This document shows positions 1,729 through 10,300 of a stretch of DNA of 64,000 nucleotides, in pieces; position 1 is the stretch's first letter; each line of letters starts with the position of its first letter. Location of the stretch: positions 1,550,001 to 1,614,000 of the forward strand of contig NZ_CP011308.1 in assembly GCF_000987835.1 (NCBI RefSeq), in the 5' to 3' direction. The notes below the pieces were generated by a model. That model was not told the origin of the DNA. It ran no database searches and was given only the letters and a program-made list of their open reading frames with translations. Position numbers and translations under genes: made by a program. This DNA is from Sulfurovum lithotrophicum (GTDB lineage Bacteria > Campylobacterota > Campylobacteria > Campylobacterales > Sulfurovaceae).

Positions 1729-3030
1729 ATGAATAAAATAGGATCAGGCATACTTTTTTTAGTGATAATGAGTATTGATATATATGGTGAAAATAATCAA
1801 ACCCTATCTTCGCAGGAGAGTGCTGATATTCTCCATCAATCTGTAGAAATCAAAACGGTCAGGGGTATCATGGGAGCCAACAACCCCATAGAGCATACCA
1901 GTGGACAACTGCGTACCGGGTATATCACATTCAAAGAGGATGGAGGCAGTCGTAACAGTGCCTATGCGCTCGGCGGACACTACCACTTTGATTCAAGAAA
2001 CTGGAATGGACTGAGTGTAGGCCTTTCTGCCTATACGGTGCTCAATCTTGGCATCAATCAGAATACAAACAATGTCAATCCGGATTTTTTCAATGCTGAA
2101 GGAAATAGTTTCATACTGCTCTCCGAGGCCTACCTTGACGGAAAATGGGGAAATACTGAGATCAAACTGGGAAGACAGTTACTCGACACTCCCCATGCCG
2201 ACAGTGACGACATCAGGATGATCCCCAACTACTTTGAAGCCTATACCCTTACCAATACAGATATTGATAACCTCACACTTTCCGCAGGGTATATCAACAA
2301 AATGGCCGGCTGGGAGAACGGTGTAGATGCATCCAGGTTTGTCAAAATATACGAGACACTCGGAACCGGTAACGACATGAACGGGATAGCCTATGCTTCA
2401 GCCATCTATGAGGGCATAGAGGATCTGACTCTGAGTCTTTGGTACTACAACTATGACAATGTCGCCAATGTCGTATATGCCGAAGCGGGATACACTTATG
2501 CCTTCTCCAAAGAGAGAAGCCTGACATTCGGTCTTCAGTATGACGGAAGCCGTGACACAGGAGAGGCACTTCTTGGCAAGCAGGATGCCAATACTTACGG
2601 AGTAAGTATTGAATTCGCCGATGAAGAAAGAGGCATACATCTGCTTGCCGCGTACAACCGTGACAACGGTGAGACAGGTGCCACAGGGCTCAGCCTTGGC
2701 GGCGGACCCTTCTTTACCTCCATGGAGGACCAGACACTCGATGCCATGGGTATAAAAGGAGAGGCCTGGATGATCGGTGCCGGATACCACTTCGCAGCTG
2801 TAGGAGTCGACGGACTTATCACCGGTATTGCCTACGGACATTTCGAAGCCGAAAATACTTCACTCTATGAATCAAGAGAAACTGACATCGTACTTGAATA
2901 CAGCTGGAATGAAAAACTTACACTGACTGCTGCCTATGCTTCTGTCGGTTTCGATGCCGAAGTCGATGAGAACGGAGATCTGCTCAAAGATTACCAGCAG
3001 TTCCGCCTTGTAGCCAATTACAATTTTTAA
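1729..3030 (+). CDS. OprD-like outer-membrane porin
   Basis: A 433-residue predicted beta-barrel with an N-terminal signal peptide (about residues 1-20, ending near IYGEN) and a C-terminal aromatic ending, VANYNF, as expected for BAM-dependent insertion. Alternating strands and an NxxTNTDIDNLTLSAGYINK type strand resemble the Campylobacterota OprD-like porins that pass small solutes. It lies 32 bp after feoA, so it may be co-transcribed with feoBA and supply iron or another cation to the periplasm; that link is inference. A copy of its last six codons occurs again at 3898-3918, next to pcoB. Confidence 0.8.
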   Translation: MNKIGSGILFLVIMSIDIYGENNQTLSSQESADILHQSVEIKTVRGIMGANNPIEHTSGQLRTGYITFKEDGGSRNSAYALGGHYHFDSRNWNGLSVGLSAYTVLNLGINQNTNNVNPDFFNAEGNSFILLSEAYLDGKWGNTEIKLGRQLLDTPHADSDDIRMIPNYFEAYTLTNTDIDNLTLSAGYINKMAGWENGVDASRFVKIYETLGTGNDMNGIAYASAIYEGIEDLTLSLWYYNYDNVANVVYAEAGYTYAFSKERSLTFGLQYDGSRDTGEALLGKQDANTYGVSIEFADEERGIHLLAAYNRDNGETGATGLSLGGGPFFTSMEDQTLDAMGIKGEAWMIGAGYHFAAVGVDGLITGIAYGHFEAENTSLYESRETDIVLEYSWNEKLTLTAAYASVGFDAEVDENGDLLKDYQQFRLVANYNF

Positions 3031-3039
3031 AGTCTAAAA

Positions 3040-3108
3040 TTAAAACTGGAAACGTATACCACCTGGCGGTAACGTTTCGTTAACTGGGGTTAAAGTCACA
3101 CGATACTC
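3040..3108 (-). pseudogene. Relic of a PcoB-like 3' end
   Basis: Read on the minus strand, this stretch encodes a tail ending TPVNETLPPGGIRFQF then a stop, matching the PcoB tail at 3915-3965 (NPVDETSLLVGVRFWF then stop) in spacing and in most key residues. No start or upstream barrel remains; the DUF302 gene follows at once. It sits directly after the porin stop, in the same convergent layout as the porin remnant and pcoB at 3898-3918. Confidence 0.55.
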
Positions 3109-3184
3109 CCAAATCCTTCTTCCTGCATCAAGCCGATATCATATATTTTCTCTTAAATGTTTTGATTTCTCTATTCTGTATTGT

Positions 3185-3571
3185 TTAGTCATCCCAGGAG
3201 TGCATAACATGTTTAAGGTTCTCAAAAATTATGGTCATATAGGACCTGAATTCATCATTTCCGTTTACCCCACTCAATATCGATGCAAGTCCTATCGTTA
3301 CTATTTTTGTCACACCTCTCGCTTTATAGACTGAGATACGGCAGGGAAAAGAGACAGAGACTTCTGGCATATGCGTCAGGGCCTGTTGTGCAGCAGAAGG
3401 ATTGCACAACTCAAAGACCGTAATATCCTTTTCTATGGGATAGCCTTTATCATGCAGTATCTTTTTAAATTCATATGACTGCAATACATCAAAGCCAACG
3501 GCTCTTGCTTTCTCTGCAATCTGCTCTTTTACAATATCTATATCTTGTGTTGTTTGTACTTTATAAATCAT
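3185..3571 (-). CDS. DUF302-family protein, intact copy
   Basis: A 128-residue soluble protein of the DUF302 family, whose biochemical role is not established. The ATG at 3571 is preferred over an upstream TTG at 3577 because AAGGA lies about 7 bp before it. No signal peptide is evident. Conserved landmarks shared with the copy at 6577-6964 are MIYKVQT at the start, ELCNP in the middle and RSYMT plus VMHSWD at the end. In this copy the middle reads NPSAAQQAL with no homopolymer, so the frame is intact. The neighbouring copper genes suggest a role in metal handling, by association only. Confidence 0.75.
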   Translation of the reverse strand: MIYKVQTTQDIDIVKEQIAEKARAVGFDVLQSYEFKKILHDKGYPIEKDITVFELCNPSAAQQALTHMPEVSVSFPCRISVYKARGVTKIVTIGLASILSGVNGNDEFRSYMTIIFENLKHVMHSWDD

Positions 3572-3914
3572 TAACAATCCTTTTTTAAGTTATACTGAGG
3601 AAATCTATAACTTTCCTTCGAAAGCCATTTCTATCGTTTCCAATATATTTTTAAAACATAATGTGTGCTAAAAATCTTACTCCATTTTACAGCCAAACGT
3701 GTAATATTTTGACTAATTTTATTTTAGCATAAATCCAAAAAATTCAATGCCTGCGTCATAGTGTTTGACAGCGGCAGGTATGTAAAAAAGCCGTTCATCG
3801 CTTGTCTATACGCCAAAGCAGCCAATAAAAGGCCAGATACCGATAGAGCCGATAAAAAACACAGTGATAGGGTCATGAGGGGGGGGTCAACGGCCCTGTT
3901 GCCAATTACAACTT
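3572..3914. other. 343-bp intergenic stretch with G8 tract and porin relic
   Basis: This AT-rich gap holds no convincing gene. It contains a run of eight G at 3879-3886, and at 3898-3918 the codons VANYNF plus stop, which repeat the 3' end of the porin at 1729-3030. On the minus strand a 50-codon frame (3876 down to 3724) begins with ATG two bases after the poly-C run and has a hydrophobic N-terminus; it has no recognisable family and may be chance or the remains of a membrane peptide. Confidence 0.5.
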
Positions 3915-4619
3915 CTAAAACCAGAAGCGTACACCTACGAGCAGTGATGTTTCATCTACGGGATTGAAATCACGTGTATTACCGAATGTCTTTTCCCATG
4001 TCACCCCCACATAAGGTGCGAATTCACGGACGATCTCATAACGCAGACGAAGGCCCGCTTCCAAAGAGGAGAGTCCGGAGCCTATCAGCATTTCCGGATC
4101 GTCCTTGGTATAAAAATCTGCTTCCACGGAAGGGGTCAGTATAAGCTTCTGGGTGATCAACGCTTCATATTCCGCATCGAGACGCAGGCCCACATTGCCG
4201 TCACTGTTGATCAGCAGTGCTGCACGTGTTTCGAAAAAATACGGCGCCAGACCTGCAATGGCGATCTCTCCCCATGTTTTGGAGGCATCACCGGTCTTGT
4301 CATAGGCAATACCCGCCTGAATATCCCAGAACGGTGCAATAGCCCTGGAATAGACCAAGTCATTCTGGCTTGATTCCAAACCATCGGAAGTCGCTGCTCC
4401 CTGGGAATAGATGTAGAGTTTATCCAGGTCATACCCGACGTAGAAGCTGCCTTCCCACTCCCTGCTGTTATCGTCATTGTTCAGTATTTCGAACTTGTCC
4501 ATGATGAACATGGTACGAATAGGGTCATCCGCACCTGCAGCATGAAGCGTCTGCCCGAGGACCATAGCACCGCTTAATAGCAGAAATATCTTTTTCCAGT
4601 TATTTTTAATATGTTTCAT
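3915..4619 (-). CDS. pcoB: Copper resistance outer-membrane protein PcoB/CopB
   Basis: A 234-residue outer-membrane barrel of the CopB/PcoB copper-resistance family, with a signal peptide (MKHIKNNWKK then a hydrophobic core ending near HAAGA) and a terminal GVRFWF. Family landmarks include the FxxDKFE, GYDLDKLY and SRAIAPFWDIQAGI segments. It is the last gene of the DUF302-SHOCT-pcoA-pcoB operon, 10 bp after pcoA. PcoB is thought to act with PcoA in periplasmic copper sequestration or oxidation. The Met-rich N-terminal extension of many CopB proteins is absent, so this is a short form. Confidence 0.88.
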   Translation of the reverse strand: MKHIKNNWKKIFLLLSGAMVLGQTLHAAGADDPIRTMFIMDKFEILNNDDNSREWEGSFYVGYDLDKLYIYSQGAATSDGLESSQNDLVYSRAIAPFWDIQAGIAYDKTGDASKTWGEIAIAGLAPYFFETRAALLINSDGNVGLRLDAEYEALITQKLILTPSVEADFYTKDDPEMLIGSGLSSLEAGLRLRYEIVREFAPYVGVTWEKTFGNTRDFNPVDETSLLVGVRFWF

Positions 4620-6576: not shown

Positions 6577-6964
6577 TTAGTTATCCCAAGAGTGCATGAC
6601 CTGCTTGAGGTTCATGAACAACAACGTCATGTAAGATCTGAATTCTTCATTTACCTCGACTGCAGCGAGCATCTCTTCAAGTCCGATGGTCGAAAGCTTG
6701 GTTACATAATTCTCTTCATAAATTACGATCCGGCATGGCAGATAGGCTGCGATCTCCGGAAGCTGTGTCAAAGCCTGCTGTGCACCCGGGGGGGTTACAG
6801 AGTTCAAAAACAGTGATATTTCTTTCTATCGGATACCCTTTCTCTTTCAGGATTTCTTTGAATTCATATGTCTGCAGTACACCGAAACCGACGGCTTTGG
6901 CCTTTTCCCCGATCTCTTCTTTAACCTGTGTTATGGGGGTTGATGTTTGTACTTTATAGATCAT
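6577..6964 (-). pseudogene. DUF302 gene frameshifted at a G7 tract
   Basis: Second DUF302 copy. The frame starting at 6964 (MIYKVQTSTP) runs correctly to ELCNPP and then leaves frame at a run of seven C on the coding strand (G7 at 6788-6794). The remainder (GAQQALTQLPE to VMHSWDN) continues in another frame to 6577. Compared with the intact copy at 3185-3571 both halves are conserved throughout. Six or nine C would restore one frame of about 128 codons, so the gene is either phase-variable and OFF, or carries a sequencing indel. It is the first gene after the metal-box promoter. Confidence 0.8.
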
Positions 6965-7165: not shown

Positions 7166-8092
7166 TTACAATGAAGTGACAGTGGTTGTTACCTTTCCTA
7201 TAACATTAACTCCGCGACTGTCATAGTAACTGATACTCGCATCATAGGTACCGGCACTTGGCATAGTGAGCAGAATGTCATAACGTTCACCCGGTGTCAT
7301 ATAGAGTGATGTCACAGTCTGAGCTTCGGCTGCGGGACGTCCATCTGCTGCGATCACTTCAAAAGGCAATCCGCCAAACTCGATCTTGGCTCCCTGGTAG
7401 GATGTTTGGTTTGTTCGGATAAGTACCTTCTCCCCTGCATTTGCAGTGATAGCAACAGTAGAATCCGTATTGGCATCTACGCCGTTAACACCATTGATCA
7501 TGAAACAGTCAGGACGGTAACGAACGGTTTTTGAACCACTTACATTCGTACTTCTCCATGTTGTATCGAACGTTCCCATCTGCCAGACGTACTCTTTTGA
7601 GAAAGTCGGTCCGCCATCCCATGCCTCTTCAATATTCCCACTTTTTGGACGGATGATAATCGTACCGTGCATACCCATATCGTAATGAAGTACCGTATCT
7701 ACGTGGCAGTGATACTGATACGTTCCTGCATGCGGTGCTACAAAAGTATAGGTATAAGATCTACCCAACCATGTATATCCGTCAACACGACCAAACTCTC
7801 CATTGCTTTTACTGCCAGCGATATATCCCGAAGTTGCAGGCACGCCATCATTTGCCTGATCTACATCAAGACCATGAAGATGAATTGTATGCGGCATACC
7901 TGAACGAAGCGTGATCTTGACCACGTCACCCTCTGTTGCCTCGATAATCGGTCCTGCCCAATCCCTGTCTCCGGAAAAACCATTCCCAAAATACCATGTT
8001 TTTACTGAACCACCATTATCAAGAGTGATATTTCCATTCATTCTTGCTCTAAGAGTTGTTCCATTTGTTTCGTAGTTAAATGTTCTTGCCAT
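7166..8092 (-). CDS. Two-domain multicopper oxidase subunit carrying the type 1 site
   Basis: A 308-residue protein of two cupredoxin domains. Domain 1 has HTIHLHG at 68-74 and HCHVDTVLHYDMGM at 128-141. These give the type 1 copper ligands (His68, Cys129, His136, a following Met) and one half of a trinuclear site. Domain 2 (about 160-308) has no His clusters. No signal peptide is visible, although the partner gene 16 bp upstream has a Tat signal, so export as a complex is possible. It lacks the second half of the trinuclear site, which the partner at 8109-9062 could provide. Substrate unknown. Confidence 0.8.
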   Translation of the reverse strand: MARTFNYETNGTTLRARMNGNITLDNGGSVKTWYFGNGFSGDRDWAGPIIEATEGDVVKITLRSGMPHTIHLHGLDVDQANDGVPATSGYIAGSKSNGEFGRVDGYTWLGRSYTYTFVAPHAGTYQYHCHVDTVLHYDMGMHGTIIIRPKSGNIEEAWDGGPTFSKEYVWQMGTFDTTWRSTNVSGSKTVRYRPDCFMINGVNGVDANTDSTVAITANAGEKVLIRTNQTSYQGAKIEFGGLPFEVIAADGRPAAEAQTVTSLYMTPGERYDILLTMPSAGTYDASISYYDSRGVNVIGKVTTTVTSL

Positions 8093-8108
8093 AATTTTCT
8101 CCTTCTTC

Positions 8109-9062
8109 TTAAGACGCTACCATGATGATAAGACCACCACCGTAAGGGTTTGTATAGACACCGTTGACCGTTACTCCTGGTACATAATGCGTATGCAATG
8201 GATAAGCACCTGACTGTTCTACAGGAAGAATAACCTCAGCTGTCGTATCTGGTCTGACAAGCACAGTATCACGGCTGATGAAGCCACTGACGAGCTGGCG
8301 ATTGTTCTTGATGGCATTGACATGGTACCCATGGAAGTGCATAGGGTATTCGATCACCCCTGCATTGATGAAGCGAATTGCGACATCCTCTCCTACATTC
8401 ATCGTAATAAGTGTATCATCATACTTTTTCGTATCAGGGTAGATAAGACCGTTGGCAAAATAGTAGTTTGGTTCATAATTATTAATGTCATAGCTCGTCG
8501 CACCGTTTTTAATGGCATCGTTCAGGCGGCCGTCCATATCGCTCATGACCATGACATATTGCTGGTCATAGGTCGGACCGTTTTCATAAAGTGCTGCAGA
8601 ACCATCTGCAGGATTTACAACTAGTGCACCAAAAAGTCCCATCGCCTTGGCGATGTACCCATTCGCATCATCGGTATACATATAGGTACCGGCAGCAGGT
8701 GCAGTAAAGGTATAGGTTTTTGTTTCGCCCGGTGCAACCGTAGGAGTTGAGCCTAAGACACCCTGTACAACAAAATTGATGTCTCTGTCAAGATTGTTTG
8801 TAAGATTTACTTCAATGGTATCACCTTCAGTCACTACCATTCCAGAACCGACATGTCCCGGACCGGGAGATGCAGGATCATCCAATGACCATGTAAATAC
8901 CGTACTCCCATCGATCATGGTTGTATCTTGACTGTTAGCGCTTATATCGTATGTTCTTGTTGCTGTTGCAGCCTGTACGTTGACCGGAGCCATAATCAAT
9001 CCAGATAGAGCAAAAGCGATTGAACCTCCAGCCCCTTTCCTTAAAAAATCACGTCTGTTCAT
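8109..9062 (-). CDS. Two-domain multicopper oxidase subunit without type 1 site, Tat-exported
   Basis: A 317-residue protein with Tat signal (NRRDFLRKGAGG, cleavage near VQAAT) and two cupredoxin domains. Domain 1 (about 35-150) has lost every copper ligand: INFVVQG and MYTDDANGY stand where HxHG and HxH are expected. Domain 2 has MHFHGYH at 241-247 and LHTHY near 289-293, giving a trinuclear half-site but no Cys for a type 1 centre. It is the first gene of a pair with 7166-8092, whose copper sites are complementary. The promoter region upstream has three 11-bp T/A-rich repeats at 9135-9167. Confidence 0.8.
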   Translation of the reverse strand: MNRRDFLRKGAGGSIAFALSGLIMAPVNVQAATATRTYDISANSQDTTMIDGSTVFTWSLDDPASPGPGHVGSGMVVTEGDTIEVNLTNNLDRDINFVVQGVLGSTPTVAPGETKTYTFTAPAAGTYMYTDDANGYIAKAMGLFGALVVNPADGSAALYENGPTYDQQYVMVMSDMDGRLNDAIKNGATSYDINNYEPNYYFANGLIYPDTKKYDDTLITMNVGEDVAIRFINAGVIEYPMHFHGYHVNAIKNNRQLVSGFISRDTVLVRPDTTAEVILPVEQSGAYPLHTHYVPGVTVNGVYTNPYGGGLIIMVAS

Positions 9063-9315: not shown

Positions 9316-9663
9316 TTAGACTATAATGTAAATACTACTGTATGAAATGATATCATCGGGAAAATCCTTAGACTGTTTACCTATTTGAATATTGGTATTT
9401 TCCAGAACATGCTTATAAGATGGCAAACACCATTTTGCATTTTCCAAAAGCTTTTCTTTTATTTGATCCTGGCTATTGAACGTGTACAGTTTGTTGACAA
9501 TAATTGTTTTGGAGATGGAATCAAAATCCTCGTAGATCTCTTCTTTAAAATGATTTTTATAAAAAAACAATGATATATAAAGCATAATGCCCATTGCAAG
9601 CAATAATGTAGAAAGTATGAAAAAGCTCAGTCTGGTCTGGAGTGAAAGGTTATTGAGCTTCAA
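9316..9663 (-). pseudogene. Truncated sensor histidine kinase (N-terminal part only)
   Basis: Encodes 115 residues: a first membrane helix (LSFFILSTLLLAMGIMLYI) and part of a periplasmic sensor loop, then stops. The second helix, HisKA and ATPase domains of the kinase are absent. It begins at TTG 9663, overlapping the response regulator end by 14 bp, the same arrangement as in the complete pair at 37860-39732. An IS3-like end lies just past its stop, so truncation by a mobile element is likely. The product cannot phosphorylate a regulator. Confidence 0.7.
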
Positions 9664-10300
9664 TGATGTAGCCTCTGGTTTTAATGTTTTTTATCAGGTC
9701 AACCGGAAGTTTCTTACGAATGGCATTGATCCTAACATTGATGGTATTTGATGCTATCTCCTCAGGGTGCACATAGAGTGAATGCAAAAGCTGTTCATGC
9801 GAGATCACTTTGTTTTTATTAATCAAAAGATAGAAAAGGAGATCGTTCTCTTTATGTGTTAGGAATATCTCTTCTTCATTATGAAATATCCGTTTGTTCG
9901 TTGTGTCGAATATCATCGGGCCTACTTCAATGTTTTTGGGTACATTTCTGCGATGAAGTGCCTGTATGCGAGCATAAAGTTCTTTCATGTCAAACGGTTT
10001 TTCCATATAATCGTCTGCACCCAGTTCCAGGCCATCTATCTTGTCATTGATGGTACTGTAGGCACTCATAATTATAATGCCCGTCTCCTGACTCTGCTTT
10101 TTGATCATATCTATAAGGTTCATACCAATATCCTGTCCGTGAATATTACGGTCAAGCAAAGCAATATCGTAGTGATAACTTAACAAGTGTCCCTGTGCTT
10201 CATCGAAGGTATTGACAGCATCAATGATCACTTTATCTTGCAAGAACTCTTTTACGATCTGCGAAAGCTTTTCATCATCTTCCAGATAAAAGACCCGCAT
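9650..10300 (-). CDS. OmpR-family response regulator
   Basis: A 216-residue DNA-binding regulator: receiver domain (acidic pocket EDDE near residue 7, phospho-Asp in LLDRNIHG near 51, KPF switch Lys near 102) and a C-terminal winged helix ending RGYIIEAQ. Closest relative in the window is the regulator at 37860-38513, with which it shares LLDRNI, MSAYSTI and the pattern of its C-terminal half. Its own kinase (9316-9663) is truncated, so it may be orphaned or served by another kinase. A C10 tract lies about 158 bp upstream of the start. Confidence 0.88.
   Translation of the reverse strand: MRVFYLEDDEKLSQIVKEFLQDKVIIDAVNTFDEAQGHLLSYHYDIALLDRNIHGQDIGMNLIDMIKKQSQETGIIIMSAYSTINDKIDGLELGADDYMEKPFDMKELYARIQALHRRNVPKNIEVGPMIFDTTNKRIFHNEEEIFLTHKENDLLFYLLINKNKVISHEQLLHSLYVHPEEIASNTINVRINAIRKKLPVDLIKNIKTRGYIIEAQ

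Follow-up and report, generated by a model that had tools for sequence, protein, structure and literature searches.

A putative multicopper oxidase divided between two adjacent genes of Sulfurovum lithotrophicum

The complete ligand set of a multicopper oxidase (MCO) consists of a type 1 copper site (H/C/H/M) and the eight histidines of a trinuclear cluster (TNC). Two-domain MCOs form trimers, and their TNC sits where domain 1 of a protomer meets domain 2 of its neighbor (PMC13151041). Six-domain MCOs have kept a single TNC and lost the equivalent sites, and in the bacterial and algal enzymes this TNC lies between domains 2 and 3 (PMC3600357). According to one published account, two-domain MCOs with three equivalent sites gave rise to the single-chain six- and three-domain enzymes by loss of redundant copper sites (PMC3600357). 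Co-export of signal-less partners by the Tat system is also established, e.g. for PaoABC (PMC4273604).

The window analyzed here is a stretch of 64,000 nucleotides of the S. lithotrophicum genome (contig NZ_CP011308.1, positions 1,550,001 to 1,614,000, assembly GCF_000987835.1). Two genes on its minus strand form a tight operon, with A upstream and B downstream:

8109..9062, minus strand: protein A (317 aa), a two-cupredoxin-domain MCO homologue with half of the trinuclear site in domain 2 and a ligand-free domain 1
8093..8108, minus strand: intergenic gap of 16 bp between A and B; it contains GAAGGAG, a ribosome-binding site of the AGGAG type, ahead of B, as read from the sequence
7166..8092, minus strand: protein B (308 aa), with the type 1 copper site and the other half of the TNC in domain 1 and a ligand-free domain 2

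Pfam places MCO domains in both halves of A and of B. PF07732 and PF07731 score above the gathering thresholds in both proteins and PF00394 in B, so that the cupredoxin and Cu-oxidase domains by which the MCO superfamily is recognized are present in each. Residues 112-301 of A align to B with 27% identity (E = 4e-15). By these profiles and this alignment, A and B are homologous two-domain MCO proteins. The top solved-structure match is 3g5w for A and for B, with 2zwn within the top three. AlphaFold single-chain models, made from two-row alignments, had pLDDT values of 31 (A) and 40 (B), too low to be of use.

The ligand motifs of the two proteins are located as follows:

8331..8339, minus strand: A residues H242-F-H244, TNC histidine pair 1, invariant in 8/8 A proteins compared
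8187..8195, minus strand: A residues H290-T-H292, TNC histidine pair 2, with no Cys between, invariant in 8/8 A proteins
7874..7891, minus strand: B residues H68-T-I-H71-L-H73, type 1 His and a TNC histidine pair, invariant in 7/7 B proteins
7670..7711, minus strand: B residues H128-C129-H130-x5-H136-x4-M141, type 1 Cys/His/Met and a TNC pair, invariant in 7/7 B proteins

Ligands were compared in an alignment of seven complete A/B sets, six unsplit type C relatives and one more divergent archaeal MCO; the eight A proteins are those of the seven complete sets and the A of Paenarthrobacter TC1. Complete type C oxidases (Deinococcus, haloarchaea) have HxxHxH and HCH-x5-H-x4-M in domain 1 and two HxH motifs in domain 2, and all six unsplit relatives in the alignment retain every ligand. 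In A, domain 2 has MHFHGYH (H242, H244) and LHTH (H290, H292), and the aligned ligand positions of domain 1 are occupied by I/V/Q and T/D/D. In B, domain 1 has HTIHLHG (H68, H71, H73) and HCHVDTVLHYDMGM (H128, C129, H130, H136, M139/M141), and the aligned positions of domain 2 are occupied by A/E/G and S/S. The type 1 set of B is H68, C129, H136 and M141 and its TNC histidines are H71, H73, H128 and H130; M139 is likewise invariant in the seven aligned B proteins. The preliminary description of this DNA had read both frames as two-domain proteins, with the ligands of A confined to domain 2 and those of B to domain 1. The frame positions and Pfam domains, and the replaced residues at the aligned positions, bear this out.

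The same division is seen in 7/7 complete A/B sets, where A has 4/4 TNC histidines in domain 2, and B has 0/4 there and the full domain-1 ligand set. The type C arrangement, in which a single chain has the type 1 site (domain 1) and a TNC half in each domain, is thus found in neither protein, since A is without the domain-1 and B without the domain-2 ligands, and the full MCO ligand set is reached by A and B jointly, by neither chain alone. As judged from the ligand residues, A and B together make up exactly one complete MCO site, and homo-oligomers of A or of B could not build a TNC from the ligands present. The complementarity of the pattern is far beyond chance. In domain 1 of several A proteins the former type 1 His survives as a relic, and both actinobacterial A proteins keep one further histidine there; the A proteins of Indioceanicola and of the Actinomycetota have HCH in domain 2 without the downstream type 1 His.

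The seven sets with this ligand table come from Campylobacterota, Alphaproteobacteria and Actinomycetota:

Window: A/B set of Sulfurovum lithotrophicum
L007: A/B set of Sulfurimonas sp. MAG313, 78-81% identity to the window pair
L002: A/B set of a same-genus genome (G003), 30-36% identity to the window pair
L015, L037 and L050: three A/B sets of the alphaproteobacterium Indioceanicola profundi, distributed over two plasmids
L039 3539-5886: A/B set in a fused frame on a plasmid of Arthrobacter sp. FW305-BF8

A adjoins B in the window, in MAG313, in G003 and at the three Indioceanicola plasmid loci. In Arthrobacter the A frame stays open across a linker and enters the beginning of B domain 1, where a run of G carries a 1-nt frameshift that is either a sequencing error or real; as read from this frame, the Arthrobacter A and B were once a single chain. 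Plasmid pTC1 of Paenarthrobacter aurescens TC1 has a decayed A-B copy (L051, about 2500-3200) and, about 7 kb away, an intact lone A (L038 3365-4945) that shows the A ligand pattern; an intact B is absent from the plasmid.

When 78 genomes of the genus were searched with a B profile, the B clade was found in two, the window genome (G000) and G003, both with an adjoining A. The pair was found in no other sampled genome when the order was searched with A and the phylum with A or B. A scan of GTDB contigs with A gave a single locus, and scans of viral contigs gave no relatives. The A/B pair is rare among the sampled genomes. Conserved pairing of the genes, which the preliminary description had named as a thing to look for, was encountered across distant bacteria of the three phylum- and class-level groups listed above.

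Two groups of longer matches were considered and set aside. Matches of about 700 aa in four same-genus genomes, taken as candidate fused pairs, are instead three-domain CopA-type oxidases with a C-terminal extension. These MCOs (L068, L069, L070 and L071 in G074, G027, G077 and G072, respectively) are about 695-715 aa long, and their last 170-200 residues or so resemble the outer-membrane protein CopB, so that a CopA-CopB fusion is possible. In other families, matches of about 450-570 aa proved to be complete two-domain MCOs that have the type 1 site in domain 2. On Rhizobium and Roseateles plasmids (L016 1948-3894, L045 415-2334) an MCO was observed behind an N-terminal membrane domain, and related plasmid matches are annotated DUF4396.

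A maximum-likelihood tree resolved three clades: A (support 100/99), B (97/94) and unsplit type C (95/91). With three supported clades the split would be old, and most simply a single event for this set. The pairwise distance matrices of A and B are correlated with r = 0.976, a value reached by 1 of 5,040 relabelings (the best). The G003 pair groups with Indioceanicola and Arthrobacter, and not with the same-genus pair of the window, in the A tree and in the B tree. This placement against the genus, together with the congruent trees, suggests that both genes moved together, and the transfer appears to have been horizontal and joint. Descent of A and B from a type C two-domain MCO, by a duplication after which each copy lost the ligands kept by the other, is the best explanation of these sequences, in line with the A, B and type C clades and with two-domain MCOs as top PDB matches.

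Type 1 sites can operate alone, and the profiles show each protein as a complete two-domain unit. A and B might therefore have separate roles, B as a type 1 electron carrier whose TNC ligands are vestigial, and A as a copper-binding or structural protein, with no TNC at all. We regard this as unlikely, because the eight TNC histidines would be useless to a type 1 site and are yet invariant in all A/B sets, while the complementary ones are lost in all of them; adjacency, joint inheritance and the fused frame would also be left unexplained.

Relatives of A and B occur together with a large third protein, X, in two further clusters:

L058 8508-19927: B-A-X cluster of Paraburkholderia
L080 5303-17044: B-A-X cluster of Cupriavidus metallidurans CH34 (NC_007974, about 1335300-1347000)

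The order B-A-X is common to the Paraburkholderia plasmids and the C. metallidurans CH34 megaplasmid. The B-like protein (519 aa in Paraburkholderia) has HTVHFHG and WHCH-x5-H, with no ligands in domain 2; the A-like protein (543-552 aa) has HPFHEHGNH and WHSH, with no ligands in domain 1. X is about 2,700 aa long and annotated as hypothetical. In Paraburkholderia its first 450 residues form an MCO-like unit of two domains that has no ligand set (E = 4e-22 with the profile, against 0.5 or worse for shuffled sequences), followed by a cadherin/Ig-like domain. In the tree the A-like protein joins A (together with X); the position of the B-like protein beside B is weakly supported (72/65). Three homologous units, one with the type 1 site and half a TNC, one with the other half and one with none, are what an asymmetric three-chain, six-domain ring would require.

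These clusters also bear on whether the two halves are completed by another MCO, in a mixed assembly with a third protein, and not by each other. A large third protein is encoded alongside in Paraburkholderia and Cupriavidus, and its N-terminus is homologous in Paraburkholderia. The X unit has no ligand set, however, and so cannot complete either half. A profile search of the window genome found no other two-domain MCO and no third homologue; apart from A and B it encodes only three-domain MCOs of the CopA and CueO types, each with its own complete site. Thus, as far as their sequences tell, no other MCO of this genome has a missing half for A or B to fill, and completion by a third protein is given only a slim chance.

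A split NirK-like copper nitrite reductase was considered as well, with the type 1 site in B and one type 2 copper where A meets B. The NirK type 2 copper is bound by HxxDxH and one domain-2 His. Profile TIGR02376 aligns to A and B, and the type 1 copper of NirK is likewise in domain 1, but its scores of 53 and 42 bits fall short of the 296 cut-off, 7/7 B proteins have HxxHxH in place of HxxDxH, and A supplies four histidines, all of which makes a split NirK highly improbable. Equally improbable is neutral decay of both copies of a duplicated two-domain oxidase: each copy does lack ligands in one domain, and the TC1 plasmid does hold a decayed copy, but the ligands kept by one copy are exactly those lost by the other, a pattern fixed in 7/7 sets that mostly share only about 30-40% identity, reading frames are intact in 6/6 two-gene sets, two Indioceanicola pairs give a dN/dS (NG86) of about 0.25-0.35, and the comparison of the window with MAG313, in which dS is saturated, gives a dN of 0.13-0.15.

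Export signals, judged by eye, are likewise divided unequally between the two proteins:

8967..9062, minus strand: signal-peptide region of A, residues 1-32, MNRRDFLRKGAGG..., with a Tat-type RR motif, as read from the sequence

A starts with an RR motif and B has no signal peptide in 6/6 two-gene A-B sets, and only 8 open codons precede B in the window, which leaves no room for one. A Tat signal on one gene only, as first described, is therefore what the locus has. A signal on one subunit only is the pattern of a Tat hitchhiker, seen here in six two-gene sets from sequence alone; with an RR signal on A and none on B, B should cross the membrane bound to A, the two being carried together by the Tat system. 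The B-like and A-like proteins of Paraburkholderia both start with Sec-like signals (by eye), and hitchhiking would thus not be universal.

Taken together, A and B are probably two obligate subunits of one periplasmic hetero-oligomeric MCO, derived from a type C ancestor by duplication and complementary loss, with B exported on the Tat signal of A. The preliminary description had placed the trinuclear site between two different proteins. Such a site is supported by the conserved pairing and ligand split, the congruent trees, the Arthrobacter fused frame, the lack of another two-domain MCO in the window genome and the signal on A only. Given the published trimer geometry and the ligand table, the only place where the eight TNC histidines could meet is between A domain 2 and B domain 1. 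A domain 2 would pack on B domain 1 like neighboring subunits of the two-domain MCO trimers, giving one unit of type 1 site and TNC. The type 1 copper of B would accept electrons singly from the reductant, and these would pass via His-Cys-His to the TNC at the A/B interface, where O2 would be reduced to water. The remaining interfaces would be purely structural, as in six-domain MCOs; the likely quaternary forms are then an A2B or AB2 pseudo-trimer and an AB dimer, by analogy with those enzymes. A three-subunit ring of A and B alone leaves one half-site unpaired, which counts against the model, as does the TC1 plasmid, where an intact A is accompanied by merely a degraded A-B copy elsewhere.

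The neighborhood of the pair contains regulatory and copper-resistance genes:

9650..10300, minus strand: OmpR-type response regulator upstream of the pair, a position that it shares with its counterpart in Sulfurimonas MAG313 (L007)
9316..9663, minus strand: truncated sensor histidine kinase, 115 aa; the MAG313 homologue (L007 806-2032) has 408 aa
4630-6333: CopA-type MCO, one of the copper-resistance genes of the window
3915-4619: CopB, likewise a copper-resistance gene of the window

The OmpR-type protein is the likely regulator of the pair, and in MAG313 regulator and kinase occupy the same place relative to it. The remaining 300 or so kinase residues had no convincing match near the window kinase, which suggests that it is broken. 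Short similar ORFs (MIYKVQT...) at 3185-3577 and 6716-6964 (minus strand) flank the CopA and CopB genes; their C-termini are divergent, and they are possibly a duplicated small protein, one or both copies being damaged. A SCO1-family protein is encoded downstream of one Indioceanicola pair, and a Nramp Mn/Fe transporter is the neighbor in Arthrobacter and Paenarthrobacter, with a metal-dependent regulator in Arthrobacter as well. Because the window pair sits in a copper-resistance cluster, its substrate is most likely Cu(I), a reading taken from a genomic context that differs between hosts; Fe(II) or Mn(II) is possible.

It is likely that these proteins represent an MCO family in which two gene products, or three in Cupriavidus and Paraburkholderia, jointly form the O2-reducing TNC and its type 1 site, recreating in trans the asymmetric, single-site layout of the six-domain enzymes. 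This would be the first known obligate hetero-oligomeric MCO active site, horizontally mobile between distant bacteria and with one subunit exported on the signal of the other. No relevant account of split, heterodimeric, heterotrimeric or four-domain MCOs was found in the open-access literature, where fungal heterodimeric laccases were matched by name; as far as that literature goes, the heteromeric division of labor seems undescribed. The A/B pairs, the fused A-B frame and the three-gene set with a ligand-free unit look like living intermediates of the published route from two-domain to single-chain MCOs, in which asymmetry would have come before fusion. The pair would also provide a natural system for expressing, mixing and mutating the TNC halves separately. 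In two records the A half is annotated as 'hypothetical protein' or 'Tat domain protein', which suggests that annotation pipelines overlook these oxidases.

Among described systems, the Tat hitchhiker PaoABC is comparable for export only: its signal-less subunits leave with a Tat-signalled partner (PMC4273604), and its proteins are unrelated to A and B. The manganese oxidase MnxEFG is also an MCO that functions only as a heteromeric complex (PMC5622069), but MnxG is its sole MCO, and MnxE and MnxF are unrelated to MCOs and take no part in the TNC. Six-domain MCOs (ceruloplasmin, hephaestin and the bacterial MnxG type) share three two-domain units with a single TNC and loss of the other equivalent sites, and the TNC between domains 2 and 3 of the bacterial and algal enzymes (PMC3600357) corresponds formally to the A domain 2/B domain 1 position. 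They are single polypeptides, whereas A and B are two chains of two domains each, and the bacterial type 1 site is in domain 2, whereas that of A/B would be in 'domain 3' (B domain 1). Closest are the type C two-domain MCOs (the two-domain laccase 2zwn, and 3g5w), which are both the best solved-structure matches and the nearest full-length relatives of A and B. They have two cupredoxin domains per chain, the type 1 site in domain 1 and a TNC to which one chain contributes its domain 1 and another its domain 2. They differ in that one gene encodes identical subunits with both halves, while in A/B the halves come from different genes and each chain is without the other half. The A/B pair is best placed among the two-domain MCOs, as a putative heteromeric form, and needs no category of its own.
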